Of a stretch of DNA of 64,000 nucleotides, positions 27,852 through 53,299 are shown piece by piece. The position numbers and the translations under genes are program-made. The DNA is from Acanthochlamys bracteata (lineage: Eukaryota; Streptophyta; Magnoliopsida; Pandanales; Velloziaceae): the NCBI GenBank assembly GCA_019914995.1, contig CM034145.1, positions 2,728,001-2,792,000 of the forward strand, written 5' to 3'. How positions within the stretch are numbered: position 1 is the stretch's first letter; every line of letters begins with the position of its first letter. The notes beneath the pieces are model-generated. The model saw only the letters and a list, made by a program, of their open reading frames with translations. It was not told where the DNA came from and searched no databases.

Positions 27852-28479
27852 CTGCATATGTAAAATAAATCAATTAGCAGCCCTGCTCTATGCCATGCTT
27901 TGAACTTCAAAGAATTTGTATATCATTGTCAGGGAGCCAACAAATAAATAGAAAGCGCAAACAAAACAACTGCGCATAATTCAATTGCTAGCAAACGAAC
28001 AAGCTAAACTGTAGGTCTAAAGAAATCAAACTGATACTCTCCCTATACACCAAAAAAATATGCAAACTAGAAAAAGTTAATTATATATTGAACAACAAAC
28101 TAGAAACTAATCCCAAGTCCCCAAGAGAGACACACACAAAGCAAATGAAAAAGTTAACATATTAACTTATACGGAAAAGATACAAATGTAGCAGCAATAG
28201 CAAGTGCTTAAATGAAAACATGAGCAGTTCTCTTAAGGACAAAGAGTACACACCACCGAGCCTCAAAAACATCAGATTATAACATTCAATTAACAAAGAA
28301 TTATGTAAGGTTAAATTTAGCCTAAGCATACGTAGTCCTTTCGAACTTGATGATAAAGTTGAACAATTTCACGTAGAAAACTTCAGCTTATAATATTTCA
28401 AATAACACAGCCTCCTAACCATATACCAAAGAAATTCCAAGCGACCAGAATAGCTAAGTCCTGAAATTTTGAAAAGTAG

Positions 28480-31400
28480 AGGAAGTAGCTAATACATCAA
28501 TTCCATGCAGACAAAAGCCTCTCATACAGTAGAGCTAAATGTCTTAACTACCCAGCCTCCAAACAGGTCTGATTATGCCTGCAATTACCTTTCACTAAAA
28601 TTGCATTTTCATAAAAAAATTTTGTACCTCGATCTCTGAGCTGTTCACGTTTTCAAGTTTTTGGTAACAACATAAATCTCTTTCAAGAATTGACAGCTTA
28701 ACAAAATCAATCAAATGCAGTTCATGTTTCACTTAAACCAAAGATTAGAAAGAATTACAGATAACTAACCTTTTTCATCCAACAATCCCCTCACTGTATT
28801 AGTTTAAGACAAAGCAAAACGCACATAAAAGGCTAAGAACTATTCAGTACAGTGTACCATAATACTCGTACTTCAGTAATAGCAAAGTAACATATTATGA
28901 TTATCGTTTTTTTACTAATAAAGTATGACTAACACTTAACACAAAGCAAATACACCACCTCACATAAAAATCTAATTTATTTACAAAAATAATGAATAGA
29001 TCTTCCCATATTGCATTATGAAGCAAAATTAAATTAGGTAACAACAGAACTGTAGCTTCACCCACTAAAAATATTATATGGATTACAAAATTAAATAAAA
29101 AAATTTCTAATAACATAACATGCTCCACAAAATCATACCACAATATCAAATTGCTATATCCCCCTCTGTTAGTGATGGCGGATGTTTAGCACCATTCTTC
29201 TCTTGCAGGTTCCTTGCGTAAAATAGTTTAAAACATAGCCGATTTCGTGCAGAAAATTTAACCAGCTCTTCAACAAGGAAAAGAAAATTCTTAGATAAAG
29301 ATAAAGAACAAACCTACTTTGACTACTCCTCTTACATTATGGAGTACCATTAACGTCCTACAAACTATTCGAACATTTATAAGAAGATACCAAGTAATGA
29401 CAAAGACTATTAAAGGAAAGAGATAAGAGAAAGAACAAAAGAGAAAAATAACAATCTCCTTCTTAAAGCAGCACGCACAAACAAAGCATTAATTTGCAGC
29501 AGTGATACCCTACATAAGAACATAATTACAAAATAAAAGGACGTACTTTACAGAGTGAGAAAAAGTACATTGAGGAGTTATTCTCTACCTTTATTAAAGC
29601 AGAATATCTGATTCAATGCTCTAAAGATTTACAATCAATGGCCTAAATGTATCTTTACTGACTGAAAACCCTCAGTTTATCCTTGATGAGAGATTTACTA
29701 GATGCCTTGCCAAGTCATTATATTCTTAGGTCTACCTTGATATGATAATAATATTTTCTCAAATATTTTTGTAATCTATAAGGACAAAATTATGCATGTT
29801 CAATAGCTAATTATCATGTCAGAGGTATAACAAACTATCCTTTGTTGAGGGGGCATGACATTTATGCAATGGCAATACCACTAGGTCTGGATCTTATAAT
29901 GTAATCATCTCTCTTGATTTCCAAGAGAACACCCATCCAGATAATAGAGATTCAAACATGACTAATGGAAGAATATGCGTCACGAATTAATGAAACAAAC
30001 TAGTACCAATGGATGAGTGTAATTGCAGTAATAATTGAAATGAGGCATGCCAGTAAAAAAACGTTCTCTCAAAATGCTCTCTTATTTTTAGATCTGTATG
30101 CAGGTTCAATAAGATGCAACAAAGAATTAGCAAAAAGATACTAAAGTGCGAAGAAGATTGATAATGTACATACATACAGATCATACGCTTACTACAAGCA
30201 ATTCTTTTATTGTGATTCCATAAGCTTTTTAACCGCTTCACCTTGTCATAACTAGAAAAAACAAATAAAGGGATAAAAACAATTTAAGAAATAAGAACCA
30301 TCAACTAATAACCTTTATTTTCTTTTTATCTAGGGATTGCTTGGCAAGAGTCCATATCATTAGCCATGACTATATAATCTAATTCTTTGGCATACGGTAG
30401 ATTCATCTATTTGAAAAATAATAAGAATGGCTACTCATAAAGATATGACACTAAGCTTTAGTATGAGCTCTAGAAGATTTACCATAATATAATTAACAAA
30501 ACCATGAATACAACCAAGTTACTTTCGAATGTCTAAAAGTTAGTGCTTGTTAAAACTTCAAAACCATTGTACCCGAAATTTGTGTTACTTTACTTTCAAG
30601 TATGCTAAGTTGCTCTAGTACACAATGTTGACCACCAACAAAGCACACTAACCTTATTTAAGACAGAATTATTCCTGGAAAAGCTACAACATCCCATACC
30701 TAAAAAAGTAGATAAGTGAATTATTTGGACTGCTTGGAAGATATGTACTATAAAAAGGCAATTGTGGCAATCTCCATGTGATTTATTAACCCACATGATT
30801 TATGTAGTCTTACTTTCCAACTATGTGTCAGCATCATATATTTTCAGGCATAAGCAAGGCAATTAGCAAAATAAAAAATAAGAGATAACCTTTTGCTTCC
30901 TTTTATGGAGGGGCTAGCCTTCATTTCAAGATAAGAGTCAATATCATCAGCTGTGACCAGATAATTTAATTCTTTTGTTCCTTATATAATTTATTTATTA
31001 GAAAGCTATAAGAAATTGCTACTTATAAAGAAAGGGTACTAACTTTTTATTATGAGCTCCAGAAGACTTACCTTCAATAAAATTTATAAAACCATCTTCA
31101 AGGTACTGAAACCCATTATGGTGATGAAAGATGTCATTAGTAAGTTCAACCAGGAAATGTTTTTCGCAGTTCTACTAACTAGTATAGAAACAGGATTGCA
31201 GATACCTCAAAGTTAGGTGGTAGTTCCAGTGACCGAATATTTACATGAATGCAATACTCTCTTGGAAATGCTTCACTTGCAATTTGCAATTCCTCTATTT
31301 ATGGAAGAGGATCATCTTCTGCAGCATTGGATATGCAGGAATTAGAGTCAATGAAAGATCATCATGCAGGGGCCAATTCACTCTATCACACTCCAGAAGA

Positions 31401-31660
31401 GTTATAACAACCTTTAGAAAATGAAGAACTAGACCCTTCAAGCATCAGTGGCAAATGATGGTAGGTATTAGGATCATCATACCCAAATGGCATACGCTGA
31501 GAGCTTACAGGACCCCATTGAAGGCCATCTTCCCACCAGTGTGGTGTACCAGCTTCTTCAGGCTCTTTCACCTCGTTGCTTATCACCAAATCTTTAAAAC
31601 AAGATGAGTGCTGACTTGTTGAGTCCAAATGGAATACAAGATGGTCACCCAAATGTGGAT
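28480..31660 (-). repeat. Array unit 1 (leftmost, most diverged)
   Basis: Contains the GTAGAGCTAAATGTC block near 28530, a diverged ESD-EHPPS-type module (minus strand about 29215-29155, reading KHPPSLTEGD), the GACGTTAATGG module near 29350, the EDDPLP-type module near 31325-31230, and the best-preserved Trp-rich module at 31652-31386. Between 29.5 and 30.9 kb I see no module copy; that part is unit-specific. Confidence 0.5.
31386..31652 (-). other. Best-preserved Trp-rich module of the array (88-codon open frame)
   Basis: This open frame contains FKDLVISNEVKEPEEAG, then HWWEDGLQWGPVSSQ, MPFGYDDPNTYHHLPLMLEG and a Ser-rich tail. Related but broken versions occur near 36130-36370, 40010-40270, 43020-43290 and 45750-46000. 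There a CATCATTTGCCACCAGTACT block has been duplicated two or three times inside the module. The intact frame and unusual Trp/His content suggest this copy may still be coding. I do not recognise a family, and the true exon borders are uncertain. Confidence 0.4.
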
Positions 31661-32019
31661 TCTACTGCTCTTCAACCATTAAATTACTTCACATTTTTCA
31701 TGAGAATTAAAATTCACCTTATACAAGAGAAATACAACATTACATGAACAAGATATGAACTATTGGATAGGATATAACATCAATCATAATGGATCTTATA
31801 TATAAACAATCAAAGACGCATGACTATGATGCCAACTATGTCAGGAATACAAGTAATCTCACAAATGCATGGGGAAAATGGACATTAAGAGAGTAGAGGA
31901 ATGTCTGTATTTAATCTACACAACATTAAACTTTTAGCCCAAAGTGATTCCAGTAGACCATAGCATGAAGTTCCACTTGCATTTGGATGAGCATAGGAAA
32001 AGCTAATTACGTTAAGTCC

Positions 32020-35000
32020 AATACAGACAAAAAGCCAATCATATAGTAGAGCTAATTGTCTTGACTATTCAATGTCCATGGAATAGATCTAATCATGACC
32101 GCAACTACCTTATTCAAAGTTTGTACCTTATCTCTGTGCTACCCACGTACTCATGTTGCTCGAAATAAGATACTTCTCCTTCAAGAATTGACAACAAACA
32201 ATGATTAGTCACATGTAGTCCAAGTTTTAGATGAAAGAGCACAGAGTACCACTAAAGATTTGAACCTAAGTCATTCAACAATTCTTCTCTCTTGATCGGT
32301 CTAAAAGCTCCTTTACAAGTTGTTTTCCTGAAGTTAAGAACAAAATAATCGGCACAAAAAGTGTCTCTAAGAAAATTCAAAAAAATGTAAACAGAATATA
32401 CTGCAACCCCAGTAATCACAACAAATTTATTGATGAGATATTGGTTGTTGTACTCATGAATATAACTAAGATCTCAAGACATAGCAAAGACCATGTTGAT
32501 CACACTATGCAGCACGCTCGCTGTCCTAACCTAGCAAATATCATTTAAAATGTAATCTCAAATATAAATCAAGCGGATCAATTTAAAGAAGATAAGTGAA
32601 AGCCATAATGAAATTAGAAACTTATCTGTGAAGTAGAACAAAACATTGTCTCTCGACTGATGGCGAATGTTCTAGATGACTTTCCTATTGCTGGTTCCTA
32701 CTACATAAGAGTCAAGAATCTAGCCAATTTCCTACAAAAATTTTTTTGATTAACATAAACATATAAAATTTTCAAATAAGGAAAAGAAAACATCTTAGAT
32801 AAGAAGAAGAAAGAAGCCTCCTTGACATCTATTAGAATATTTCCTATATCTTTAAATGAATACAATATAGAGTACCTCAACGTCCTATAACAGAAACACT
32901 AAAAGAAACACTAAAAGAAGAAACCAAATGAGAAAAAAAGGTTAGAGAAAACAAATCGTAGAAAGAATAAAAGGAAATATAATGATGATGCAATACACCT
33001 GTGATGGAAATTGTACCTTAAACACACAGGTGGCAGAAACGTAGAGCCAGTCCCTAGTGGTGACTCCAACTTCTGAATAAATGGGTAAGGATGCGACGTT
33101 ATTAAAAAATGACATGATACGAGTATTAAAAAGACAGAACAAACTAAACTAAGAACCAAAAAATTAAATAAAAGACCTTGCAAGACTATTATTGAAATTC
33201 AGCTTCTTTTAAACAGCCAGTTGTAAATACAACACTAACTTATTACTACCATGATTGTCTTCCGCCTCTCACGGTTTGAAGGTTCTTTGCAAGTTGTAAT
33301 TCTAAGGTTAATAGCAAAATAGTAAGACAATAAAACCATCTTGAGGAAAAGAGAAATAATAGATAGTGCAATAACAAATAGGGAGATGCGATGAGATATG
33401 TTGCCATGTATGAAGGGGACTCTACAAAACGCTCGAAAAAGTGAAAGGGAATACTGGAGTTCCAAAAATAGCCTAAAATTACATAGAGCGACCGTAATTA
33501 TTATCGTCTATGTAATCAGACTAAGATATCAACACATATTGAATTCTAGGGTAATGGCACAGCGATCCTAATCACTCTCAATCATCTAATGCAGATCCAA
33601 TAGCAAATGGATAAATCCCCTCCTCTTGTAACATGGACAAAAAGAAAGTAACTAGAAAAGTACAATATCACCATTTCAAATTCTTAGACAACTTAAGATA
33701 AGAAGGAAAACCTATCACAAAACATATAACATATTTGAATATAGTATAGATCCGAATATAACATAAATCCGTACCAACCACAATAAGGTAACAATATTTA
33801 GTTAAATGCTATTTCAAATTCAAAACAGGATGAAATATCGAACGTTAAATGAATAGGAAACACAGAATCAAGAACTTATAGGACAAAAGCAATTCTCCCT
33901 CCAAGGGCAATGGCGAACGGTCAGAATCAGTCATCTCCTACTTGTCTACAAAAATAGAGTAAGATCTTGCCAGCGCATACAAAAAATTTAACTAACAAAC
34001 ATATCAACTCTTCAACAAGGTAAAAAGCTCTTACATAAGAAGGCAGGAAAGAAACATGCTTTAATCCTCCTATGGCTTTTTCCACATTGGCATGAAACAA
34101 ACAGATATATTAAGCACCCTGAACGTCCTATGAGCTGCACATAATTTTGTATGAGACCAAAAAAAAAGAAAAGAAAGAAGTTAGGAAGGCAGCAAAGTAT
34201 CAATAAAGAATAAAAGATAAAAATATGATGGTGCATATGCCCACAACAAAATTCGTGAATCCAACTCGCTTGGTACTAACCATTCCTCAGTCTCACAGGC
34301 AAAACTTAATTTGCAAAGGAAGTGGCGCTGCATTACTTACGAACACAAGAACAAAAGCATCCTTCCATCATAAAGAATGTTGACCATCCAACAAGCATTC
34401 CATCGGTTCTCTTTAGCTGAAACAAAGAGGGAGAAACGAGAAAAGAATAGTACCCAAGTCAACTACGCAAGTTAAGGACAAATAAAAGGATTTATTGAAG
34501 CGTGGAATTTATCTAAGAAAGAAAGTGACTGCTCGATCGATTGCCCTAATCAAAGAGCCTTAGCCCTCCATGTCCCGATTATGTCCATCAAAGAACCTTA
34601 GCCCTCCAAGTTCCAGCCAAAACTTTATTCTTTATTTTAATCACGAACGAGGAGAAAGACAAGAAAAACAACAAATATGAAGCAAGATAAGAAAGTTAAG
34701 CAACAAGAAAAGATTGAGAGACACAAGTAACTACTCAGGTAAATGACTTCTTGATTGATTGCCTTGTATTGAGGAAAAGTTTACCTCCAACCACCACTGC
34801 CTACGAGTGCATTTAAAGTACACAAAGCACACTAACCATCCAAGATGACTTGAGATGTTATTCCTGAAAGAGCAACCACATACTATACTAATGAAAAAAG
34901 TACAAGTGAATTATTTAAATATTTCATAAATAAAAACTACAAGAGACATTAGGCAATTTGCATATGAAATGTTAACACTTGTGACTTATGCAGTCTTACT

Positions 35001-36370
35001 TACCAACTACGTGCCAACATCATATATTTTGAAGCATTAGAATTGGCAAGTACCGTTAAACCACTAGAAAGAGGACGCAAAGTATTGAAGGTTATCAATA
35101 TAAAATTCAATTAATCTGGAAGGATTAGCCCTAGAAACTTACTTCGTCAGGAGGGGCAATCCTACGATAGAATTACCAAACAGTTGTATATTTTGGTTGT
35201 GGTTCATCAGATAGAGGAATAGATCAAATAATTCTTCTACATTGCTAGGAAAATGCAAAACAGTTTGGTACTTTAATCATCGTCTTGTCATCTAGCCTAT
35301 GGCAGTCACTAATCTCATCTGTAGGGCCGTATTTAGATGCCTGACATCCTATAAGATAGACTCTACTTAAGAAAGCACCAAAAGACAAGAGAACAAAGAC
35401 AATGTTGTGCCTACTAAGAGCCTTTTCAAAGATTAGAATAGTGTGTAAAATAGTTTCAAGGAATGATTTGAAGAACTGTTAATTAAACTAACATGCTTGT
35501 AATAAGAGTTTCAAAAGATATACTTCAATATAATTTACGGAACCATCTACAAGGTACCAAACACACTATGACAATGAAAGATAATCACTAATAAATTCAA
35601 GAGAGATGTTCTTCACAGTTCTGCTAATTATTATAGAAACAAGATTGCTGTATAACTCAAATTTACAAGTGGTAGTTCCATAGAAAGAATATCGTCATGC
35701 CTGCAATACTTTTCCCAGAAATGCTTAGCCTGCAATTTGTAAGTAACGTTTGGTAGTGCTTATGATAAGAAGCTTTTGTAGAAGAAAGGATATTTTAGAG
35801 ATTTTTTGAAAAACGAGCTTGACTTTTTTATCTCAATAAAGAAAATAAAAATTATGCATATAAAGATTGTACGACATACAATTTTTTTATACTTTCCAAA
35901 AAAATTTTTAAAAATCTGTAAAATACTGTAAAAAATTTATTGGAATATGTGGGCTTTTTTGGAATGAAAAGCACTTCAATAACCTATGCCAAACATCTTA
36001 AGTCCTCTAATAAGAGGATCATCTTCTACATCTGTTAAATATGCAGGAGTTAATAGTCGAGGAAAAACCATCATGCATAGGTGGCTTTACTCTATCAGAG
36101 TAACCTTTAAAAATGAAAAACTTGCTCGTCAAGCACTGGTGGCAAATAATGGTAGGTTCTACTGATCATCATGGCCCAGACTCTATAAGTACTAGTAAGC
36201 TCTTCAAGAACTCATAGCAAATCATCGTAGGCTCTTCTAGTATGGTGGCAAGTACTGAGAGCTTGTAGGACCACTGAATGCCAAACTTCACAGCACCATG
36301 CTATACCAGCTGCCTAAAGCTCAATAACATTATTACTACTCACCAAATCTTTATAAGGTGGGTGCTAAAA
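32020..36370 (-). repeat. Array unit 2, with partial internal duplication and an inserted MITE
   Basis: Holds a left set of modules at 32030-33420. One (32336-32280) reads KQLVKELLDRSREKN after a CTTTTACAAG-side acceptor. A second, weaker set lies near 33900-34150. Little recognisable sequence follows to 35640, then the EDDPLP-type and Trp-rich modules at 35690-36370. A MITE-like element at about 35745-35998 splits the EDDPLP-type module. Confidence 0.45.
35745..35998. mobile_element. MITE-like insertion inside an array module
   Basis: Other array copies give the empty site: TGCAATTTGTAA runs straight into CTCCTCTACTTC there, but here about 254 extra bases intervene. The insert begins near CGTTTGGTAGTGCTTATG and ends near AAGCACTTCAATAACCTATGCCAAACAT, an imperfect terminal inverted repeat. 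TAAGT on both sides may be the target duplication. The interior has the T-run, AAAATTATGCATATAAAG and AAAAATTTTTAAAAA blocks of the dispersed family, so this copy dates that family as active after the array began to expand. Confidence 0.65.
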
Positions 36371-37399
36371 AATCATATTAATAACCATGCTAAATGAAAC
36401 CATACAACTTGAACAGATGTTTCATATGTAAATTATTCTGAGGTTGATAAATCATATCAAGATTTGAATTCATAAGAACAGGTAAAACAGACAAAGAAGA
36501 AAACGCAAACGTGAAAACCTTTTTAAAATACAATTTGCAAGAAATTTTAAAAAAAAGGTAAAGAAAGGGATTATGTACAATCAAGTTACGTGCCAAAAAA
36601 TGGATAGCCTCTCTAGTTGCATCTTGGCCACTATTTTGATAGCCAAACCACTTAGAGCACTGTGACGATTTTGGTTGGTTAAGGCCTCTCATAGTCAGCT
36701 TTCTCTTGAGCAACACCTTCCCTATTGGCAAAACAAATCAATTAGCAATTGGTGTAAACCCTATATCTAATATCAAAATCAGGTGCTCAAGACTGCCTAA
36801 AAAACTTTGACAAATAAAAAAAATTGTCATGTTACTAAAAAGGAAGGAGAAAGACCTAAGAAGAGTAGGATAGAGGGAATGCATAAAACCCAACCAGATA
36901 GAATTGAATTCGGACATGGATAAAGTTTCACATTTCAGGCCGAGTAAAATTTCAATAGAATGGAGAAGAGAAACTACATAAATCAGGAGCGGTGGCTAAG
37001 ATGACTTGGCAATAACAAGAATGATCGCAACACCTACCGCTTGCCTTTTTTCTTTTAACTCCAAGCCATATATACAAACGGTAACTTGAACAGGGATTCT
37101 ACTGCTTTCTGACCATTGAATTTCATCAACATCCATAGTTTTTCATGAGGATTAAAATTCACCTTATATTAGAGAAATATAAGGTTACTTGAGCAGTATA
37201 TGAACTATCAGATAAGATTCACCATCAATCATATGGATGTTATGTATAAGAAATCAAAGAGCAATGACTACAGTGCCCAAAATATCAGTAATATAGAGAA
37301 CTTCACAAATTAATGCAGAAAAAGATATTAAGACAGTAGAGATATACTGTATTATAATCTATAAACTTCCTTCTAATTATTGAACCAAAGAAGCTAATT
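36371..37399. other. Spacer between array units 2 and 3
   Basis: Not clearly made of array modules. A 113-codon minus-strand frame (36731-36390) starts basic (KVLLKRKLTMRGLNQPKSSQ), continues as KWFGYQNSGQDATREAIHFL and ends in an AT-rich, probably intronic tail. It may be a module seen only once or an exon of the ancestral gene, but I cannot identify it. Confidence 0.3.
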
Positions 37400-40270
37400 A
37401 TGCTAATTTCATGCAAACAAAAGCCTAACAACAGTAGAGCTAATTTTCCTAACTATGCAACGTCCATGGAACAAATCTAGTTTTATACACAATATGTTAT
37501 TCTTATACATTTGTGTTTGATCTGCAAGCTACGTATTTACTCAAGGTTTAGGCTTACATCATACGTTCATGTTAAGAATTGACAATGCAACAATAATTAA
37601 GGAATCGTAGACCAATTTTAAGTTTAAAAGAACACAGATTACTGCTAAGGATTTGCACAGACTAACCTATTTCATCCAAAAGTTCAAGGAAGGCCCAATA
37701 TAAGTTCTTTTCCTGAAGTTGAGAGCAAAATAATTAGCACAAAAATGGCCTCAGAAGGTGAAACAGAATGCAAGCAGAAATTTACATAACGGGAGTGTTA
37801 TATGTTTTGCTCAGAAATGTGACGGACATATCAAGATATACAAAATAGTATGTGAATGACACTTGATCTCACACTATAATCTAATTACTACAAAAAACAA
37901 GAGAATAATCTCCCCTTACTATTGCATTATGAGCAAAAGCAAGTAACTACAGAACTGTGACATTCCCTGTTTTAATTTCTATAGAGCTTGACAAGAAAAA
38001 AGAGAAAGCAAAAAAATTGCTGCATATAACATACTTGCTGAGACAGTACGACAGTATCAAGATTTGATAAGGTAACATTACTTAATTAATAGTGATCTTT
38101 AATTCTAGGCAAACTCAAAGAAGACAAATGAAAGCTAAAAGCAAGATCAAGAACTTATCTGTGAAAACGAGCAAAACTCCCATGGCAACTTCTGGCGGAT
38201 GTTCATTATCATTGTCTCCTACTGGTTCATGAAGATGAATGCAAGCCAAAAGTAGGATCAAGAATTTATATGTAAAATAAAACTAAACTAAATCTCCCCC
38301 AGCAACTGATGGTGGATGTTCACTTTTCTTGCTGGTTCCTCCTGTAAAACTTAGTCTAAAATCAAGCTAGTTTCCTGCAGAAATGTCAGCTAACATAAAC
38401 TATCAACTCTTCAACAAGGAAAGAGACACTCTTACGGGGGAAGCGATAAAGAAACCTCCTTGATGGCTAATACAACTCCCACATCTACACACAATTCTGA
38501 ATTCATTATGGGGTACCCTCAATGTCCTACAAAAAATAGAAACATTATAAGAAGAACCAAAACGACAAATGTTAGAGGGAACAGCTAGTAGAAAGAATAA
38601 AAAAAATAATGTTGATGTATATACCCATTACATAAATTGCAACTATGATTACCATGTCACAGTATTAGGGCCGAACCATTCCTTGGTTCTGCTCCAACTT
38701 CTGAACAAATTGACAATGATGAAACATTATTTAAAAATCACATGATACGGGTATTGAAAAGACAGACAAACTAAAGTAAAAATAGAAATAAACTGTTTAG
38801 ACCAAGCATGACTATTATGTGAATACAGCTTCCCTAATACATTCAGTTTAAAATATATCAGTAACCTATTACAATCAAAATTGTGGTCCGTCTGTAACAG
38901 TTCAAAGCTTCATTGCAGTATATATTTCTGAGGTTAGTAGCAAAATGATAAGCCAATAAAACCACCTTTCAGAAATTAGAAAGTATAGATAGTGTAAATA
39001 ACAATCAGGAAGCTGTGATTAGACATGTATTTATGTAAAAAGAAACCCCTTTCTTGTAATTGACTGTTTTTGCAAGGTAGCTGCTGAATGTTGAATATTG
39101 AAGTAGGAATTTGTGAATTTCTTTAATATGGTGGCTACTTTGCTTTTGGTGTTTCTTTTTACATGAATACATGTCTAATCGCAGCTTCCTAATTGTTTAT
39201 TTCAGTTGTTACTTTAGTTTGTCTGTCTTTTCAATCATGCGATTTCTAAATATTGTTTCATCATTGTCAATTTGTTAGAAGTCGGAGAGCAAAGTAGCCA
39301 CCATATTAAAGAGATTCAGAAATTCTTATTTCAAAATTCAACATTCAGCAGCTACCCTGCAAAAACAGTCAATTACAAGATATATTTTAAAATGAAAGGA
39401 GGATATACAAATACAATCACTTATTACAGGAAATCTTTTTTGGGTCAATTGCATAAACATTAACAAGTTTCACACTGGCATGACCAGAAGAAAACATCAT
39501 ACTAAGAATCACCAAAACTAACATAAGAATCGTGAATTACTAAACTTTCGTGTTACTTTTTTAAAAATGTAAATGAGGGGTGGACTTCATTGACAAAGGG
39601 CTCCTCATGAAGATGCTTACAAGCCTTTAATATGAGCTTCAAAAGATATACCTTGAATACAATTTATGGAACCATATAAACCCACTATTCCAATAAAAGA
39701 TACGAGTATCACTAATAAATTCAAATCATAGAGAAAATATTCTTCACAGTGCTGCTAATTATTACAGAAACAGGATTGCTATATACCTTAAAATTGGAGG
39801 TGGTAATTCCGTAGATGAATATCCACACGCCTGCAATTCTACTTCTTGATGAAATGTTTCGCCTGCAATTTGTAACTCCTCCACTTCAGGAAGATGATCA
39901 TTTTCTGCAGCTATTACATATGCAGGAATTATAACAAAAGACAAACCATCAGACAGGGGTGGACTCATTCTATTAGACTACAGAAGAGTTATTAGTACCT
40001 TTAGAAAATGAAGAACTATGCTCCTCAAGTACTGGTGCCAGATGATGGAAGGTTCTTCCTATCATCTTGGCCCAGACTCCACAAGTACTAGTTGGCTCTT
40101 CAAGTAGTGGCAAATGATGGTAGGCTCTTCTAGTACTGGTGGCAAGTAATTAGTACTTGCAGGACCAATTGAGTGCCACCTTCTCAGTGTCCATACTATA
40201 CCAGCAGCATGAGGCTCAATAACGTCATTTCTCACCAAATCTTTAGAAGGTGAGTGTTGACTGATTTCGT
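37400..40270 (-). repeat. Array unit 3
   Basis: A near-complete set of landmarks runs from the GTAGAGCTAATTTTCC block (37430) through the ELLDEIG module (minus strand, 37720-37665). Two ESD-type modules follow (38225-38160 and 38345-38290), then the GACATTGAGGG module (38520), the AGTTGGAGC module (38695), the EDDPLP-type module (39930-39780) and the Trp-rich module (to 40270). The EDDPLP-type module here is open for 68 codons (39968-39762, with HLPEVEELQIAGE). An inverted copy of two modules is embedded at about 39055-39285. Confidence 0.6.
39055..39285 (+). repeat. Inverted copy of two modules creating a hairpin inside unit 3
   Basis: Reading 39285 back to 39060 gives the landmarks CTTCTAACAAATTGACAATGATGAAAC, GACAGACAAACTAAAGTAA, GATTAGACATGTAT and AAAGTAGCCACCATATTAAAG in normal order, so this segment is flipped relative to the array. 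CTTTAATATGGTGGCTACTT (39123 region) pairs with the forward copy near 39290-39310, and the blocks at about 39165-39225 pair with 38990-39050. It looks like a local inverted duplication that lost about 200 inner bases. Confidence 0.7.
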
Positions 40271-40299
40271 GAAATGCAGTCGTAATTTAAGTTGAACAC

Positions 40300-43290
40300 C
40301 AGATAGATTACTGCTAAAGATTTGCATCTCACTAACCTATTTCATCCAACAATTCATCTGTCTCTATTAGTTTAAAGCCCATTAACATGTTGTTTTCCCC
40401 AAGTTAAGAGCAACGTACTCTTCAAAAAATGGCTTCTACGAAACATATGCAACAGAAACATACACAAAGGCCGTATATTGTGTTGCTCGCATGTCAGATC
40501 AGAAAATACTATGTTGTTGACAACGTATCAAATCTCACACAATAATCTAAAGTACTTCCAAAAACAAAATAATAAATTCACTTCATTATTTTATGAAGCA
40601 ACAGCATGTAACTACAGAATTAGAGCATTACCAACTCAAATTGCAATAGAGCTTGACAAGAAAAAGGAAGAAGGGAAACAGTAGCTGAACATAACAAACT
40701 GCTGAGAGCATACAACACTACCAAGAATTGATGATGTGACATAATTTAATAAATGTGATCCAAAATTTATAAGCGAACTCAAAGAAGGAAGAACCAAAAA
40801 CCAATAGAAGGATCAAGAACTTACCTATGAAATAAAGGAAAACCAAATTGTCCTTGGCAACTGATGGCAGACGTTCATCATCACTTTTCAGCTGCTTGTT
40901 CAAGAAGATGGTTGAAAGATAAAAGTAGTATGAAGAACTTCTCCGCGAAATAGAACAAACTTAATCACCCCTGGAAACTAATGGTGGATGTTCACTATCA
41001 CTTTCCTCCAGCTGGTTCCTCCTGCATAAGTTAGTCCAAAATCAAGCCAGTTTCCTGCAGAAAGATCATCTAACACAAACAAACAAACTCTTCAACAAGG
41101 AAAAGAAACACTTCTAGAGTGGGAGGACTAACAAGACCTCCTTGATTGCTAATACAGATAGCTTATCCCATATCTCCAAGAAATGATCACTATACTGTGG
41201 GGGTACCTCAATGGCTTACAAACATGAGAAACTTCCTAGTACAAACCAAAAGAGCATATGTTAGAGGGAACAACAAGTAGAAAGAACAGTAGAAAACAAT
41301 ACTGGTGGTGTATATACACAACCCATAACTTGCAAGTCGATCACCATGTCGTAGTATTACGGTTTGTTGAAATTCCAAAATTGATTTTAATGATAACAAT
41401 AATTAAGAATTATAGTTTATGGATTAGGGTGAACTAATGATTGGAATCAAGTTCTGCAGAAATTCATAAAACAGAAAAATCTATACAGAACAGAGAATCC
41501 CTCAGCCACCAAACAGCCAGCTGCCTAATTGCTGCTACATGGATATCGCGAACAGAGAAGAGCAGAGAATCCCTCAGCCACCAAACAGCCAGCTGCCTAA
41601 TTGAGTTAGTCCAAAAATCGAGCCAGTTTTCTACTGAAAGATCATCTAACATAAGCATACAAACTCTTCAACATGGAAAAGAAACACTTAGAGTGGGAGG
41701 AATAATGAACCTCCATGATTGCTAATACAGCTTCTCCCATATCTCCAAGAAATGATCACTATATTGTGGGGTACCCTCAAAGGCTTACAAACATGAGAAA
41801 CTTCACAAGTAGAATCCAAAAGAACATATGCTACAGGGAACATCATGTAGAAAGAATAATAGAAAACAATATTGGCGGTATATATACACATTCCATAATT
41901 GCAACTCAATCCCCAAGTCATAGTAGTACTCAGAATTGTTTCTTAGCAGTGCTCCAACATTTGGATGAATGGCAATAATGAAATATATTCAGAAATCACA
42001 AGATACGGGTATGTAAAGAGAGACAAACTAAACTAAATAACCTAATCAAAATGAACGTTAGGCCTAGCAAGACTATTATGTGAATGGAGCTTGCTTAATA
42101 CGTTCACTTTTAAGTATATCAGTGATTTGTGTTCAGTCTCTAACAGTTCAAAGCTTCATTGCAGAATATAGTTCTAAGGTTAGTAGCAAAACGATAAGCC
42201 AGTAAAACCACCTTTGTCAAAGTAGAAAGTCAAGATAGTGCAATAACTACCAGGAAGTTGTGATTAGATATGTCTTCATGTAAAAGAAACACCAAAAGCA
42301 AAGTAATTCACCACGTTAAAAGAACTTTGGAAATTCTTACCTCAATGCTCAATATCCAGCAACTGCTTGCAAAAGCAGTCAATTATAAATATATTCTAAG
42401 CATGAGACAAGGATATATACAAATAGAATTACTTATCACAGGAAATCTATTTTTGGATCTCTTGCATAAACTTTAAGAAGATTCACACTGACATGACCAG
42501 AAGAAGACGTCATAAAAAGAACGACCAAAACTAAAAATAAGTTAACTTATACCTTTCGTGTTCTTTTATTTATAAAATTTAAATCGGGGGCTGGACTTCA
42601 TTGACGAAGCGCTCCTCATGTAGATGGTGTAGAATCTTTTAATATAAGCTTCAGAAGATACACCTTTTAATATGATTTTATGAACTATATACAAGGTACT
42701 AAACCAACTAAGGCAGTGAAAGATAAAAATATCATTAATAAATTCAATAGAGAAATATTCTTCATTGTTCTGGTAATTATTACGTAGACAAGATTGCTAT
42801 ATACCTCAAAATTACGGGTGTGACTCCGATAAACAAAATATCCACATGCCTGTGATACCCTTCCTGGAAATGCTTCACTTGCAATTTGTGACTCCTCTAC
42901 TTCAAAAAAAGGATCATCCTCTGCAGATGTTAAATATGCATGAATCATAGACAAAGAAAAACACATCATGCAAGGGCAGATTTATTCTATCAGACTACAT
43001 AGAGTTATTAGTACACCTTCACAAAAAGAAGAACTGTGATCTTCAAGTACTGGGGGCAAATGATGCTAGGTTCTTCTGTCATGGCACAGACTCGACAAGG
43101 ACTAGTAGGCTCTATCACTACAGGTGGCAAATGAAGGTAGGCTCTGCTAGTACTGGTGACAAGTAATGAGAGCTTGCAAGACCGATTGAATGCCACCTTC
43201 TCGGCATCCATTCTATACCTGCTGTCTGAGGCTTAAAACCTCATTGCATCTCACCAAATCTTTGGAAGGTGGGTGCTACGTCTTAAGATT
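40300..43290 (-). repeat. Array unit 4, with an LTR-like insertion between two copies of a sub-block
   Basis: Modules in minus orientation include ENNMLMGFKLIETDELLDEIG (40405-40343), LKSDDERLPSVAKDNL ending at donor ATAG|GTAAGTT (about 40895-40823), and ESDSEHPPL (about 41010-40965). The block with the TTCCTCCTGCATAAG to CCATATCTCCAAGAAATG landmarks is present twice (41000-41355 and 41605-41930), separated by foreign sequence. The EDDPLP-type module (42965-42785) and the Trp-rich module (to 43290) follow. Confidence 0.6.
41358..41604. mobile_element. LTR-retrotransposon-like fragment with a 40 bp direct repeat
   Basis: Array sequence stops after GTAGTATTACGG and is replaced by TTGTTGAAATTCCAAAATTG, resembling starts of plant Copia-type LTRs (TGTTGAAAT...). 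Inside, a block beginning AGAGAATCCCTCAGCCACCA and ending GCTGCCTAATTG occurs twice (about 41496-41533 and 41569-41605). Array sequence resumes at AGTTAGTCCAAAAATCGAGC. I infer a truncated LTR or TRIM-like piece; no target duplication is evident because the flanks are different parts of the unit. Confidence 0.4.
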
Positions 43291-43459
43291 AAATCAAACC
43301 ACACAACTAGATTCATTTCATTCGAACTGATGTTTCAGGAGTAAAATTATTCTTGAGGTTTATAAATTATATCAAGACTTGAATTCGTTTAGAACTAGTA
43401 ACATAAATCATAACCAGACCACTTGAATTCATGACTGCAAATAGGAAGAAGAGCTAGCA

Positions 43460-46010
43460 ACGGTAATTTCATGCAGATGAAAAGCTTCTTGACATTGGAG
43501 CTAATTATCCTGACGATGCAACTACCACGGAACAGACTTAATTTTATCTGCAGTTACCTGTCCTTAGAGAATTTTACTTGTTCTCTGAGCTATATCTACT
43601 AAAGTTTTAGGCAATACCATACATCTATATCATGAATTGACAACGTAGTAGTAATTGGTGAAATGCAGTCCTAGTTTGAATTTGAAACAAGACATACCAC
43701 TAAAGATTGCACATTGGAACCTATTTCATCCAACAACTCATCTGTCTTTATCAATTTAAAGCCCAATTACAAGTTGTTTTCCTAAAGTTAAGAACAAAAC
43801 AATCAGTACAAAAATGGGCCTCTAAGAGACATTATGCAAATAGAAACTTATATAATGCAAGTGTCATTATTTTGCTCATTAAATATGAGTAACACCTCAA
43901 AGGCATAGAGAATACTATGTTGATGACAGCATATGAAACCTCACACGATAACTTAATTTAGCTCCAAACCCAAAAGAATAAATCTCACCTTATTATTGCA
44001 TTATGAATCAAAAGCATGTAACTCCAGAACTACGACATTACCAATTCAAATTGCAATAGAGCTTGACAAGAAAAAGGGAAAAGGAAAAAGATTGTTGAAC
44101 ATAACATACTTGCTGAAGCATACAACAATATCAAGAATTGATAAGGTAACATTATTTAAGGAAATGCGATTTCATATTTCAAGGCAAGCTCAAAGATGAA
44201 GAATGAAATCCAAAAGCAGGATCGAGAACTTATATGTGAAATATAGCAAAACTAAATCTCCGCCAGCAACTAATCGTGGACGTTCATCTTCACTTTCCTT
44301 CTGCTGGTTCAAGATGATGAATGAAATCCAAAAGTAAAAACTTATCTGTAGAATAGAACCAAACTAAATCCCCTATGGCAACTAATGGTGAAATGATTTT
44401 TCTGCTGGTTTCCCCTGTATAAGACAGTCAAAATCCAGCCAGTTTCTGCAGAAAATTCAATTAGCATAAAACAAACAAACTCTTCAACAAGGAAAACAAA
44501 CCTCATTTATTGCACATACAACTTCTCCCATATCTCCAAGAAACGATTGATAAATATTTTGCGAACAATAGAAACTTTATAAGAAGAATCCCAAACAAAA
44601 AACACTAGAGGGAACATCAAGTAGAAAGAACAAAAGAAAACAATAATTGTAGTGTATAGACCCATTGTATAATTGCAACTAATCACCACCTGGTTGTATT
44701 AGGGCCGAACCGTTCCTTAGCGGTGCTCCAACTTCTGAACGAATGGAAAAAGATGAAACATTATTTAAAAATCCCATGATATGGGTATTGAAAAGACAAA
44801 CAAGCTAAACCAACAACCGGAACAAATTGAACATTTGAACAACCAGGACTATTATTTGAATGAAACTTCCTTAATACATTCAGTTTTAAATATATCGGTA
44901 ACATATTACAATAAAAATTGTTTTCTATATTTAGCAGTCCAAAAACTCATTGCAGAATATAATTCCTGAGGCTAGTCGCAAAATGATAAGTCAATAAAGC
45001 CATCTTTGTGAATTAAAAATTACAAATAGTGTAATAACACCTAGGAAGTTGCAATTAAGTAAGTTTTCCTATAAAAAGAAATACCAAAAGCAAAATAGTC
45101 CACCACACTGAAGAACTTCAGAAGTTCTTACCTCAACACTCAACACCGAGTCGCTGCCCTATGAAAACACGCAATCACTTATCATAGGAATCATTTTTGG
45201 GTCATTTGCGAAACTAACAAGTTTCACACTTGCATGACTAGAAGAAAACGTCATAGAAAGAATCACCAAAATTGCAATAAGAATAGTTATCTAACAACCT
45301 TTCGAGTTATTATTTTTATTCTTTTAAAAGTTTTTAGTTATTATTATTTTGTTAAATTGAGGGCTGTACTTCATTGACGAATGGCCCCTCATGAGGATGG
45401 TGTACAAGCATTTAATGTGAGTTTAAGAAGATATACCTAATGTAATTTATGAAACCGTTACACCAATAAAAGATAAGAATATCACTAATAATCCAATTGA
45501 GAATGTTCTTCACAGTGCTGCTAATTATTATAGAGAAATGTTCTTCACTAATAAATCTCCACTTGCCTGATGGTTTTCTTGATGAATTGCTTCGCCTGTA
45601 ATTTCTAACTCCTCTACTTCAGGAAGAGGATCTTCTTCTGCAGTTGTTAAATATGTGGGAATTATAGTCAAAGACAAACCAGCATGCAGGTGTGGATTCA
45701 TTCTATCAGACTACAGAAGAGTTATTACTACCTTCAGAAAATTAAGAACTATGGTCTTCAACTACTGGTGCCAGACGATGGTAGGTTGTTCCTATTATCT
45801 TTGAACAGACTCTACAAGTACTAGTTGGCTCTTCAAGCAGTGCAAGTGATGGTGCGCTCTTCTAGCAATGGTGGCAAGTAATTAGAGCTTGCACGAACAA
45901 TTGAATGCCACCCTCTTCGCACCATGCTATACCAGCCGCCTAAGGCTCAATATCCTCTTTTCTCACCGAATCTTTAGAAGGTGGGTGTTGACTGTTTGAG
46001 TCTAAATCAA
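43460..46010 (-). repeat. Array unit 5
   Basis: A full landmark set. Minus-strand modules include FKLIKTDELLDEI (about 43790-43727, with a stop after ENNL), NQQKESEDERPRLVAGGD and following LVLLYFT (about 44315-44235), FLEIWEKL near 44535, GSDSVLSVE between TTTTCATAG and GTAAGAACTT (about 45160-45130), and EEDPLPEVEELEITGE (about 45640-45590). Confidence 0.6.
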
Positions 46011-46179
46011 TCCATACAGTTTGATCGATTCGAATCACTTAAACTGATATTTTTTGAGTAAAATATTCCTGAGATTGATAAATCATATCAAGACTTGAAT
46101 TCATAAAAATTGGTTACACTTGAGTTCATGATTGTAATTTTGACAAGCTAAGGAAGGAGCTTGTTATGCTAATTGCATG

Positions 46180-47340
46180 CAGACCAAAGGCCTCTTGACA
46201 GTAGAGCTAATTGTCCTAACAACGCAACCTCCATCGAACAGATCTAATTTTATTTGCAGTTACCTTATTCCTAGTGATTTGTACTTGATCTACCAGCTAT
46301 GCATGTACTCAAGCTTTAGGCAACACCATGAAACCATGCCAAGAATTGACAAAGCAGAATTAGTGAAATGCAGTCCTAATTTATGTTTAACACTATACAG
46401 ATTACAGCTAAATATTTGCACGTCACTAACCTATTTCGTCCGACAATTCATCTGTCTCTATCAGTTTAAAGCACATTTACATGTTATTTTCCCCAAAGTT
46501 AAGAGCAACATAATCTGCAAAAAATGGGACTCTACGAAACATTATGCAACCAGAAACTTACACAAACGCAGTATATTGTGTTGCTCACATCTCAAATCAG
46601 AAAATACTATGTTGTTGTCAACGTATCAAATCTCATACAATAATCTAAAATATTTCTAAAAACAAAATCCCTTTATTATTGTGTGAAGCAACAGTATGTC
46701 ACCACAGAACTATGGCATTACCAATTCAAATTGCAATAGATCTTGGAAAGAAAAAGGAACAAGGGAAAAAATTGCTGAACATAACACTCTGCAGAGAGCA
46801 TACAACACTATCAAGATTTGATAATGTAATATTATTTAATAAATTTGATTCAAAATTTATTGGCAAACTCAAAGAAGGAAGAACCAAAAGAAGGATCAAG
46901 AACTTACCTATGAAATAAAGCAAAACCAAACTGTCCTTGCCAACAGATGGCAGACGTTCATCATCACTTTTCTGCTGCTTGTTCATGCAGATGATTGAAA
47001 GCCAAAAGTAGCATCAAGAACTTCTCTGCGAAATAGAACAAACTAAATCTCCCCTGGCAAGATGGTGGATGTTCACCATCACTTTCATTCATCTAGTTCC
47101 TTCTGCATAAGTTAGTCTAAATCAAGCTAGTTTTCTGCAGAAAGATCATCTAACATAAACATACAAACTCTTCAATAAGGAAAAAAAACACTTAAGAGTG
47201 GGAGGAATAATGAAACCTCCTTGATTGTCAGCACCCATGCTATACCTGCTGCCTGAGGCTCAATAACCTCATTTTCCACCAAATCTTTAGAAGGTGAATG
47301 CTGACTGCTCGAGTCTAAATCAACCATACTGCATGATCGA
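46180..47340 (-). repeat. Array unit 6 (internally deleted)
   Basis: Carries the landmarks from the GACAGTAGAGCTAATTGTCC block (46199) to AACTCTTCAATAAGGAAA (47166), then jumps directly to the end of the Trp-rich module (47230-47340), so about 1.5 kb of the unit is missing. The LKSDDERLPSVGKDSL-type module is open (ORF 46986-46726 covers it). It is very similar to the left half of unit 7, which suggests a recent duplication of about 1.3 kb. Confidence 0.6.
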
Positions 47341-47499
47341 TTCGATTCACTTGAACTGATATTTCATGAATAAAGTTATTCCTGAGGTTGATAAATCATA
47401 TGAAGACTTGAATTCATAAAAATTGGTTATATGGCCAATACACTTGCATTCATGATTCTAATTTTGACAAGCATAGGAAGGAGCAAGTTATGCTAATTC

Positions 47500-49530
47500 C
47501 CTGTAGATGAAAGGCCTCCTGACAGTAGAGCTAATTGTTCTTACTACGCAACCTCCTCCGAACATATCTGATTTTATCTGCATATACCTTATTCTTAGTG
47601 ATTTGTACTTGATCTCCCAGCTATGCATGTACTCAAGCTTAAGTCAATGCCATCCATCCATGCCAAGAATCGACAACGCAATAATTATTAGTGAAATACA
47701 ATCCTAATTTAAGTTTAACACCAGCTAGATACTTCTAAAGATTTGCACATCAATAACTATTTCATCCAACAGTTCATCTGTCTCTATTAGTTTAAAGCCC
47801 ATTCACATGTTGCTTTCCTGAAGTTAAGAGCAACATAATCTTCAAAAAATGGGCTTCTACGAAATATAATGCAACCAGAAACTTACACAAACGCAGTATA
47901 TTGTGTTGCTCACATCTCAAATAAAAAAATACTATGTTGTTGTCAACGTATCAAATCTGGCGCTATGTTTTAAATTATTTCCAAAAACAAAAGCAAAAAT
48001 CTACCCTAAATAGTGTATTTTGAAGCAACAGCATGTAACTACAAAACTATGACAATACCAATTCAAATTGCAATAGAGCTTGGCAAGAAAAAGAAAAAAG
48101 CGAAAATTGCTGAACATAACAAACTGCTGAGAGCATACAACACTATCAAGAATTCATAATGTAACATTATTTAATAAATGTGATCCAAAATTTAGTGGGA
48201 AACTGAATGAAGGATCAAACAAATACCAAATGAAGGATCAAGAACTTACCTATGAAATAAAGCAAAACCAAATTGCCCTTGGCAACTCATGGTAGACGTT
48301 CAACATCACTTTTCAGCTGCTTATTCAAGAAGATGATTGAAAGCCAAAAGTAGTATCAAGAACTTCTCCGCGAAATAGAACAAACTAAATCTCCTCTGGC
48401 AACTGATGGTGGATCTTCACCATCACTTTCCTCCAGCTGGTTCCTCCTGTATAAGTTAGTCTAAAATCTTTTCCTGCAGAAAGATCAACTAACATAAACA
48501 TACAAACTCTTCAACAAGGAGAAGAAACCCATCTAGAGTGGGAGGATTAATGAAACCTCCTTGATTGCTAATACAGCTTCTCCCATACTCTAAAAAATGA
48601 TGACTATATTATGGGCTACCATCAATGGCTTACAAACATGAGAAACTTCACAGGTACAAACCAAAAGAACATATGTTAGAGCGAACAACAAGTAGAAAGA
48701 ATAATAGAAAACAATACTGGTGGTGTATATACACATCCCATAAATTGCAACTCGATGACCATATCGTAGTAGTACGGCTGAATCGTTCCTTAACAGTGCC
48801 TCCAGCATCTGAACCATTGGCAATAATGAAACATATTCAGAAATCACAAGATACGTGTATTGAAACGACAGACAAACTAAACGAACAGCCGAATTAAAAT
48901 GAACATCAAACCAAGCAAGACAATTATGTGAACGCAGCTTCCTGATACGTTTCAGTTTTAAGTATATCAGTAACCTACTATAATCAAATTGTGTTCAGTG
49001 TCTAACAGTTCAAAGCTTCAATGCAGAATAAATTTCTGAGATTAGTAGCAAAATGATAAGCTGGTAAAACCACCTTTATCAAATTAGAAAGTCAAGCTAG
49101 TGTAATAACAACCAGGAAGTTGCGATTAGATATGTCTTTATGTAAAAAAACACCAAAGGCAATGTAGTCCACCATATTAAAAGAACTTTCCAAGATTATT
49201 ATGTGAATGCAGATGCATTCAATTTTAAGTATATAAGTAACCTATTATAATCAAAATTGTGTTCAGTCTCTAGCAGTTCAGAGCTTCATTGCAGAAGAAA
49301 TTCTGATGTTAGTAGCAAAATGATAAGCCAATAAAACCACCTTTGTCAAATAGAAAATTAAGCTAGTGTAATAACAACCAGGAAGTTGTGATCAGATGTG
49401 TCTTCATGTAAAAGAAACACCAAAACCAAAGTAGTCCACCATATTAAAAGAACTTCGAAAATTCTTACCTCAATGCTCAACATCCAACAACTACCCTGCA
49501 AAAGCAGTCAATTACAAGATATATCAAGAC
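47500..49530 (-). repeat. Array unit 7, with a doubled end module
   Basis: Begins GACAGTAGAGCTAATTG (47521) and runs to TCAATTACAAGATATATC (49525). The minus strand has ESDGEDPPSVARGDL (about 48440-48385) and an 85-codon frame (48847-48590) over the LEALLRNDSAVLLRYG module and its T-rich spacer. The block with GTTCAAAGCTTCA and CCACCTTT(A/G)TCAAA occurs twice in a row (48920-49190 and 49195-49525). The EDDPLP-type and Trp-rich modules are missing. Confidence 0.55.
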
Positions 49531-49539
49531 ATAGAAAAT

Positions 49540-50900
49540 ACTACCGATGGCAACGTATTGATTCTCACACAATAATCTAATTTACTTCCAAAAATAAAAG
49601 AGAAAGTAACTAACGATAGACTATCACATTAGTCTTAGAATTGAGATAGAGCTTCACAAGAAAGCAAAAAGGGAAAAAATGTTGCATATAACATATTTGC
49701 TGAGAGCATACAACAATAAAAGATTTGATAAGGTAACATTTTTTTAATTAAATGAGTTCACAAATTTATGGGCAAACTCAAAGAAGAGAACAAAAGCTAA
49801 AAGCAGGATCAATAACTTATCTGTGAAATAGAGAAAAACTAAATCTCCCCTAGCAACTAATGGTGGACATTCAGCTTCACTTTCCTTCTACTAGTTCAAG
49901 AAGATGAATGGATGCTGAAAGTAGGATCAACAACTTGTCTGTGAAATAGAACAAAACTTATCTCCCTCGACAACTGATGGCGGATGTTCAGCAATACCAG
50001 AAACAGTCATATAATGCAAAAAAAGGTCACTGAGACGGTAGAGAAGTGTATGTATCTAATCTGTGCAGCTCCATCTAACCACTGCACCAAAGATATCCTA
50101 TAAACAAACACTTAAAGTCCACAACTGCAATGACAAGTATATGAAGAAGCTCAGTATATCAATTCCATGTAAACAAAAAACCTTTTAGACAGTAGAGCTG
50201 ATTGACAGGACCAATCAACTTCTAGTGAACATATCTAGTTATAACTGCAGTTATCTTATCGATATTTGAACTACGTAAATGTCAAAATTTTGACAATAGC
50301 ATACATCTTTGTCAAGAATTGATAATGTAACAATATTAAGCGAAATTTAGTAAGTTTTAGTTTAATAAGACACAGATTACTAGTAAAATTTGCGCATGGC
50401 TTACCTTTTGTTTCTAGCAGTTTAAAGCTCCATTACAGGCTCTCTTTTCCTAAAGTTAAGAGCAAAGAGAATGTAGGGAAATGTTATTAAATAAGTAGGG
50501 AAATGTTATTAAATATCTCTACATGAAATGGGCACCTATGTTTGTGAAAGATTACCTAAAATGGCATGACATTATTTGATGTGATCATAGTTTGTTTTGC
50601 TCAAGAATATGACTAAGATCACAAAACATTTCAAATACTATGTTCATGACACAGCAAACTCGATCTCACAAAATAATCTAATTTAGTTAAAAAAAAAGAA
50701 TAAATTTCTGGATATTGCATTATGAAGTGAAGGGTCAAACTTAAAGAAGATGAAATAAAGCCGTGGGTAGCATCAAAAACTTATCTGTGGAAATAGATCA
50801 AAATGAAAATCTCCCACTAACTAATGGCACGATGTTCAACATCACTTTTCTCCTGCTTGTTCCTCCTGCATAAAACAGTTTAGAATTTAGCCAGTTTCCT
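49540..50900 (-). repeat. Array unit 8 (nearest the candidate first exon)
   Basis: Rearranged: landmarks start at the AATTGAGATAGAGCTTC block (49638) and two ESD-type modules (near 49870 and 49975, the latter reading EHPPSVVEGDK). They then restart with the ACAGTAGAGCTGATTG block (50199), AGCAGTTTAAAGCTCCATTACA (50415) and a last ESD-type module at about 50875-50785 (NKQEKSDVEH), which has a stop and a mutated donor (CAG|ATAAG). This would be the first internal module of a minus-strand transcript. Confidence 0.5.
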
Positions 50901-51495
50901 GCAGAGAATTTAACTAACATACTAAAGCCTAAGAAATTGCAGCTGATGACATATCAAATAACAATGGGCAACAGTGTTCAGGTTTGTTTAGCCTCAGTAC
51001 ATAGAGACTATATGAACATGACTGTAATCCTATTTCAAATGAAGAACCCAGAACTGTGATATTTTATAAGGAACCAAAATTTAAATGATTACAAACATTA
51101 AAAGAAAAAGAAAGAAAACCTTTACAATCACAACGGGAAAAATATGGAAAGAGAAACAACAGTGAATTACAAGAACGGCAAGATTAAAGCAATAAGATCA
51201 CCGTGCGAGAAATTCAAAGAGTACCCCAAGTTCAAACCAAATGAGGAACCCAGATTTTGAAACAATAAAATAGACTGAATTTTCAGGAAAGAAGAAAGAA
51301 ATTAGAAGCAAATTTTATTTAGAACCAAACGAAGAAACAGAAACATTAGAACTACAGATTGGAATTACAAGAACGACTCGAACAGTAAGAACGGAAAGAA
51401 AGACCAAAATACTACAAACACACATATTGTGCAAGAAATTCAAAGAAAGCCAAATTCAAATAGAGAAAGATGCAACTAGAAGGACAGATTATTAC
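50901..51495 (-). other. Probable first intron of the minus-strand unit
   Basis: T-rich on the minus strand, with no open frame. It contains two related blocks, GAATTTCTTGCACAATATG-like (51424-51450) and GAATTTCTCGCACGGTGATC (51195-51215), each followed by CTTGTAATTC. This is a direct repeat of about 230 bases, so duplication has reached the intron too. Confidence 0.4.
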
Positions 51496-51735
51496 CTTAA
51501 TCGGGTCTTCTTCTTCTCCACCCTGTTCTTCTTCTTCATCTGGTTGTTATTGTTCTTTTTCTTCTCCGATCGTGGATTCTTGTAGTTGTTGTTGTTGTTT
51601 CTTGGTTGATGTTTTGCAGAATAAACGAATATAATTAAATTGAAAGGAACGAAAATCCAGAGAAACGCCATAGAATGTTTTGGTTTTAGATGAGGAGATT
51701 GAAGAACAAGAAGAGAACTGGTGGGTTTGGTTCAT
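51496..51735 (-). pseudogene. Candidate first exon with transit-peptide-like start and an in-frame stop
   Basis: Eighty codons run from ATG 51735 to a donor at 51496 (ATTAAG|GTAATA), exactly in phase. The start (MNQTHQFSSCSSISSSK) is Ser/Thr-rich and acid-poor, then Lys/Gln-rich (KKQQQQLQ), like a plastid or mitochondrial targeting sequence. The end is very acidic (QPDEEEEQGGEEEDPIK). A TAA (51549-51547) separates the two parts in the same frame. Either the gene is dead, the frame restarts downstream, or translation ends as a 62-aa peptide. An upstream in-frame ATG at 51774 is likely 5' of the transcript start, judging by the TATA box. Confidence 0.4.
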
Positions 51736-51792
51736 TGTTTCTGTTCTTATTCGGATTTTTATTTTTCTCAGCAACGTTCAATTCAGAGTAGT

Positions 51793-51800
51793 ATTTATAT
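51793..51800 (-). promoter_or_regulatory. TATA box for the minus-strand unit
   Basis: The minus strand reads GCATATAAATACTACTC here. Transcription would be expected 25-35 bases downstream, near 51765, which fits ATG 51735 as the first start codon. This is the only promoter-like signal found beside the array. Confidence 0.45.
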
Positions 51801-53060: not shown

Positions 53061-53299
53061 TAAAAAAAAAAAAGGACACATGATGATATAAAAAGCAGAT
53101 CTAATGCACAGATTTTACTAATATTTAGGTATTCAATCAACTTATAGTCATGATTCAATCACTGCAAGCAGAAGAGGATAGGGTTGAAGAAGAAGACGAA
53201 AGTAGTGTATGTATGGATGGATGAGGATAAACAACAATTTGCTAGGAAGAAAATAATTTGCTGATTGAAAATCCTGAAAAGAAAGGTTGGACACAAAAA

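Follow-up and report, generated by a model that had tools for sequence, protein, structure and literature searches.

Known functional tandem exon duplications keep both their reading frame and their splice sites. Among RNA genes, the repeats of Xist have been described as derived from mobile elements (PMC2430539), and in plants the cotton locus pGhFAD2-1 is presented as a pseudogene long non-coding RNA (lncRNA), such loci being capable of acting as functional RNAs (PMC13194438). Here we analyse a 64,000-nucleotide window of the 195.5 Mb genome of Acanthochlamys bracteata (C20:2,728,001-2,792,000), which contains a repeat array on the minus strand. An original prediction, made from the letters of the window, had placed about eight decaying copies of a multi-exon unit at positions 28,480-50,900. 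Judged on genomic sequence, the array, and likewise the family to which it belongs, is very probably a chimeric, tandemly amplified, unprocessed pseudogene. Our literature search returned no paper whose title or opening abstract lines describe such an array.

An array of two alternating blocks

Self-comparison by BLAST of positions 28,460-50,925 yields 113 non-self pairs that cover 17,132 of the 22,466 bases, against none in any of ten dinucleotide shuffles of the array, none in positions 4,001-26,460 of the window and two in positions 51,001-64,000. Identities run from about 65 to 98%, with the best long pairs at 84-86% over 0.9-1.3 kb. Adjacent units in mid-array are spaced some 2.8-3.0 kb apart; the youngest pair (45.92-47.23 and 47.24-48.57 kb) has a spacing of about 1.3 kb. 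The self-match is strong, and so quite different from scattered matches of low identity.

Profile scans reveal a compound repeat in which two blocks, M and BD, alternate, both on the minus strand, with eight match groups for BD and six for M, several of them truncated, duplicated or interrupted. Given these groups and the 113 pairs, 'about eight decaying copies' is a fair description of a real array, and the predicted amplification of an internal block of exons plus introns is seen in the M block, which is repeated along its length. The predicted limits do enclose an array, though the family reaches slightly further, from an e1-like fragment beginning at 27,672 to about 51.8-51.9 kb, or approximately 24 kb.

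Parentage of the M block

The clue to the identity of M was its EDDPLP module: at C7:5.925-5.945 Mb, exons that are clearly coding surround an M-like stretch. These exons belong to one intact-looking gene, which runs on the C7 minus strand from 5,945,953 to 5,936,887 and has a co-linear homeolog at C12:5,778,861-5,786,207. The single-copy ancestor that the original prediction had proposed to seek is therefore available within the same genome. The 3' exons of the parent, joined by hand before the domain search, match DUF7046 (E 6e-11 for C7, 2.3e-7 for C12) and the AIR9 A9 domain (E 1.3e-7 and 5.9e-8 respectively), all above the curated Pfam cut-offs. A joined parent peptide of 105 residues gave no match in a structure-database sequence search, and a literature search for DUF7046 found no paper. 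Across seven exons from e11 to e15 (252 codons), the C7 and C12 genes keep AG and GT borders in all seven, have no stops or frameshifts, and show a ratio of nonsynonymous to synonymous substitution (dN/dS) of 0.33. A second, more distant gene pair, related to parent exons e7, e12 and e13, is found at C2:1.030 Mb (L044) and C1:0.903 Mb (L045).

The M blocks of the window correspond to parent exons e10-e14 together with their introns, and the block at 29,778-31,648 reaches e15. The minus-strand modules that had been called exon-like are indeed so, in that those of M match parent exons. Introns have been kept: positions 30,861-31,648 align over 788 bp, exons and introns alike, at 77% identity to C7:5,937,381-5,938,181. 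Their presence rules out a processed pseudogene.

Decay of the exon copies

What can be said of the single reading frame that was thought to have stayed open in several copies? All 23 exon copies sought in the window were found. Read in the parent's frame, their 884 codons contain 27 stops and 78 frameshifting gaps, and the AG border is kept in 14 copies and the GT border in 12, so this part of the prediction is not supported. Disabled copies are likewise found on C13, where 511 codons from 12 of the 13 copies (one was dropped at 57% identity) carry 8 stops and 36 frameshifts, on C5 (19 stops and 58 frameshifts in 624 codons; 16 of 16 copies) and at C7:6.65 Mb (5 stops and 20 frameshifts in 224 codons; seven of seven).

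Comparison of the copies with the parent gives dN/dS values of 0.54-0.65, which mix the constrained parent branch with the branch of the copy. Four sister pairs of pseudo-exons give 0.82, 1.34, 0.97 and 0.64, and three non-sister pairs 0.53, 0.73 and 0.97; when the sister pairs are pooled, the value is 0.90, against 0.47 for the parents at the same codons. From the stops, frameshifts, loss of borders and near-neutral sister-pair values we conclude that the M copies are pseudo-exons. M thus combines descent from a known gene, retained introns, a disabled frame and near-neutral in-frame substitution (pooled 0.90, single pairs 0.64-1.34), as in an unprocessed pseudogene.

The BD block

The pseudogene-of-parent assignment does not extend to the whole unit. 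BD has no match better than E 9.1 at the parent loci and no credible match at the C1 and C2 paralogue loci; derivation from the parent or its paralogues accordingly lacks support, and only M is assigned as a pseudogene of the A9/DUF7046 gene. BD is instead a clustered family of its own, with 66 matches on C5, C13, C17 and C19 only (40 of 63 candidates scored). Ten BD-like places stand in a row at C19:3,605,236-3,621,647 with a spacing of about 1.6-1.8 kb, from which it follows that BD has also been amplified without M. On C17 (3,496,345-3,506,000; L030, L040), tandem units of about 1.49 kb that are 88-89% alike adjoin a BD copy; when one of these units was searched against the genome, matches were limited to a dispersed sub-stretch (query 814-1131), a probable effect of the skipping of common words.

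The exon-like pieces of BD have no open frame common to the copies. For the module quoted in the original prediction as ESD-EHPPS, 6 of 30 full-length copies (among 44 hits) are open in the best frame, compared with about 2.6 in shuffled letters, a small excess in a rough test. The quoted peptides are in part composites: ESDGEHPPS (47,086) and ESDGEDPPS (48,430) occur once each, ELLDEIG is present as quoted in three copies (37,685; 40,355; 43,739), and the exact string EDDPLPEVEEL is absent from 26-53 kb, where the nearest forms are EEDPLPEVEE, EDDPFFEVEE and the stop-containing EDDPLP*IEE. Six open reading frames (ORFs) from the modules contain no domain above cut-off (one reached E 0.2), and translated ORF matches show no strand bias (887 plus, 883 minus).

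Arrangement of the array

All features lie on the minus strand and are described here from the 5' end in the transcript sense. BD blocks were placed by BD profile scans, and M blocks by matches to the parent profile followed by exon alignment. First comes a 5' block (50,920-51,803; 72-75% identity to members on C5, C7 and C13), with a TATA-like box at about 51.79 kb, a candidate first exon that extends to about 51,493 and ends in a GT border, and then a T-rich candidate intron. Next are the BD pieces closest to the array's 5' end (49,687-50,921), a BD block at 47,460-49,180 with a partial duplicate at 49,181-49,446, an M remnant consisting of part of e11 (47,232-47,395; parent profile scan) and a partial BD block (46,137-47,283).

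The M block at 45,177-46,082 carries pseudo-exons e11 and e12 with flanking intron and is followed by BD at 43,439-45,111; the M blocks at 42,417-43,360 and 39,406-40,261 each carry e11, e12, e12b and e14, and are separated by BD at 40,266-41,362 and its partial duplicate at 41,604-42,289. Beyond them lies a BD block at 37,387-39,059, which is 92% identical to its C13 counterpart over 36,663-38,323, then an M block at 35,495-36,712 with e10, e11, e12, e12b and a second e12 stretch, and then BD at 31,922-33,420 with a weaker second match at 33,414-34,289. Local inverted repeats occur at 38,993-39,380, the best having 93-nt arms that are 94% complementary and 143 nt apart.

The last M block (29,778-31,648; nhmmer E 4.7e-167 and 3.2e-90) is of a terminal, parent-like type by exon-by-exon alignment and by the tree described below: it contains e11, e12, e12b, e13, e14b and e15 with introns, e12b and e13 being locally duplicated within it. 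Downstream are a partial BD block (28,463-29,450; nhmmer) and the e1-like fragment (27,672-27,812; nhmmer with the C7/C12 parent profile, E 1.5e-16; blastn 79-84% over 79-101 bp). The array had been predicted to be bracketed by single candidate first and last exons, and the 5' block does occur once in the window (50.92-51.80 kb), as do e14b and e15 (29.8-30.1 kb); the bracketing is nevertheless imperfect, with BD-like DNA and the e1-like fragment both lying past the last exon.

Family, phylogeny and chromosomal setting

A search with the whole unit gives 77 matches, on C5, C7, C13 and C20 only (40 of 61 candidates scored). One C13 copy (5.100-5.108 Mb) follows window positions 30.3-38.3 kb in the same order, at 84-92% identity. 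Our tree is built from 15 M rows and does not include the short pieces of M at 35.5 and 47.2 kb, C13:5,097,420 or unfetched family loci. It separates the parent pair (support 100/99), the terminal copies from C20, C13 and C5 (w31, C13_5106 and C5_4976; 99/97), which stand apart from the amplified copies, and ten amplified copies from C5, C7, C13 and C20, although with a midpoint root the order of these three groups is not proven. The grouping across chromosomes indicates that the terminal and amplified types of M, both common to several chromosomes, predate the spread of the family. Rows from the window are otherwise scattered: w36 pairs with C13_5102 (100/99), so that at least one unit is common to C20 and C13; w40 pairs with w46 (99/97), other duplications being local; and w43 has no resolved place. 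Synonymous divergence (dS) between copies and parent is 0.37-0.43 and thus exceeds that between C7 and C12 (0.29), which suggests that the C7/C12 duplication came after the M copies had separated from the parent line.

A leucine-rich repeat (LRR) gene at 26,058-27,404 adjoins the array and has a homeolog at C19:4,413,636-4,415,042 (83% identity); the 20 kb of C19 beside that homeolog, including one end of the gene, contain no match to the array. C19:4,410,718-4,412,003 was first taken for the homeolog of the right flank, a reading under which the whole array would be an insertion; we withdrew it, the right flank being a high-copy repeat, and C20:2,794,001-2,799,000 shows no match to that C19 segment. 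The repeat in question, at 62.6-64 kb, has 41 matches listed (40 of 116 candidates scored), which are spread over 19, or close to 19, different contigs. An ORF within window positions 62,600-64,000 weakly resembles DUF659 (E 0.046, under cut-off), a domain known from hAT-type transposases. A small dispersed repeat occurs at 21,161-21,356, 35,747-35,951 (inside the array), 52,829-53,020 and 58,353-58,481, and also near the compared C19, C7 and C2 loci. Among the family loci, C5:4,964,097-4,967,968 (L015) and C7:5,928,209-5,931,472 (L019) have long ORFs that by eye resemble retrotransposon polyproteins.

A proposed history of the array

In the history that we favour, a genomic piece of the A9/DUF7046 gene (e10-e15 with introns) would have come to lie beside the BD block and the 5' block. 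The compound unit of BD and M would then have multiplied, presumably as tandem copies recombined unequally, and the locus may afterwards have spread to give the clusters on C5, C7, C13 and C20 while local duplication and decay continued. The array probably yields no protein product.

Several observations weigh against this account. The e12 copy at 42.9 kb has neither stop nor frameshift in the parent's frame, and the e11 copy at 31.7 kb is free of stops but has three frameshifting gaps. Values of dN/dS under 1 also occur, namely 0.64 in one of the sister pairs and 0.53 and 0.73 in two of the non-sister pairs. The coding potential of BD was judged solely by its poor frame conservation. Finally, positions 51,020-50,941 are the best conserved 80-bp window of the 5' block (0.883 against a median of 0.805).

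Alternative explanations

Any use of the array would have to be as RNA, and the alternatives that survive best are of this kind. The array could be a pseudogene-derived lncRNA gene in which the 5' block serves as promoter and first exon and the amplified exons as repeated RNA architecture, a possibility to which we give little credence. Similarly doubtful is its extension to all the clusters, as a lncRNA gene family from a dying A9/DUF7046 gene in which the 5' block would drive pseudo-exon RNA modules, possibly giving small RNAs against the living parent. The segment from 50.92 to 51.80 kb matches nine other loci on C5, C7 and C13, eight of which were taken into an alignment; the TATA-like box recurs among these members and, by eye, the GT border of the candidate first exon is kept in seven of nine aligned rows. 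The conserved 80-bp stretch fits the same idea, as does the precedent of Xist, where dead exons of a protein gene form part of a repeat-rich RNA gene (PMC2430539). However, in the seven fullest rows mean identity is lower in the candidate first exon (0.788) than in the adjacent candidate intron (0.855 and 0.797), the splice borders of the amplified exons have decayed, and homology of the C20 copy to most members stops near the TATA-like box, at about 51.80 kb, so that upstream promoter DNA may be missing. A conserved coding 5' exon was rejected, as ATG-led frames are broken by gaps of one or two bases between members. A serine-rich ORF in the 5' block prompted us to consider a TIR-NBS-LRR resistance-gene cluster; none of 122 NB-ARC matches (122 of 195 candidates scored) falls in the family clusters, and this too was rejected.

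Slightly less probable again is a small-RNA source, with phased or hairpin small interfering RNAs (siRNAs) arising from the repeats and inverted arms. The M copies resemble a living gene that siRNAs could target, and the complementary arms (39,052-39,144 and 39,288-39,380) are accompanied by several weaker pairs, but the strong hairpin is short and confined to a single place, and the window has no Rfam match at gathering level and one, at chance level, under a relaxed threshold. A transposable element, or gene fragments captured inside one, we consider very unlikely. The family does occur at several sites and combine sequence from two sources, a pattern that gene-capturing elements can produce; the 77 matches of the unit nonetheless lie on four chromosomes only (40 of 61 candidates scored), unlike the dispersed repeat at 62.6-64 kb. 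Nor did the modules prove to be pieces of a known element: no transposable element was identified as source, and no unit-linked terminal repeats or transposase turned up, element ends not having been the object of a dedicated search. A working protein gene of variable length, as the original prediction had raised, can be all but discarded, for although ELLDEIG recurs in three copies and a few exon copies are open, we found no conserved open frame with splice sites, the M exons being disabled throughout and neutral between sisters, the ESD-EHPPS frame mostly closed and the BD copies lacking a common frame.

Comparison with known systems

For annotation, the array serves as a warning that exon-like modules which are short, open and bordered by AG and GT may, as here, be relics. 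If a transcript were found, the locus would become a plant test case for RNA genes that arise from repeat-amplified pseudogenes. In this respect it resembles pGhFAD2-1 in being a plant pseudogene, while the consulted part of that report does not mention an internal array (PMC13194438). With Xist, as its origin from Lnx3 is outlined in the sources (PMC2430539; PMC5577775), it has in common the mixing of remnant exons of a protein gene with other repeated DNA; the repeats of our array are, however, whole exon-intron blocks, and it is known from sequence alone.

Tandem internal exon duplication offers a second comparison, since a block of exons and introns is repeated within one locus, but the frame and splice sites have here been lost. 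Closest are the unprocessed, or duplicated, pseudogenes, with which M shares a known parent, retained introns, disabled frames and near-neutral change; the difference is that most units here hold only a block of the parent's exons, amplified together with unrelated BD DNA. The array is a well-preserved example of the way in which part of a gene can join other DNA, multiply as a block of exons and introns and move between chromosomes as it decays, and its steps can be ordered because parent, homeolog and several array stages are present in one genome. As a set of amplified 3'-exon relics joined to other clustered DNA, it is unusual, though not new in kind.

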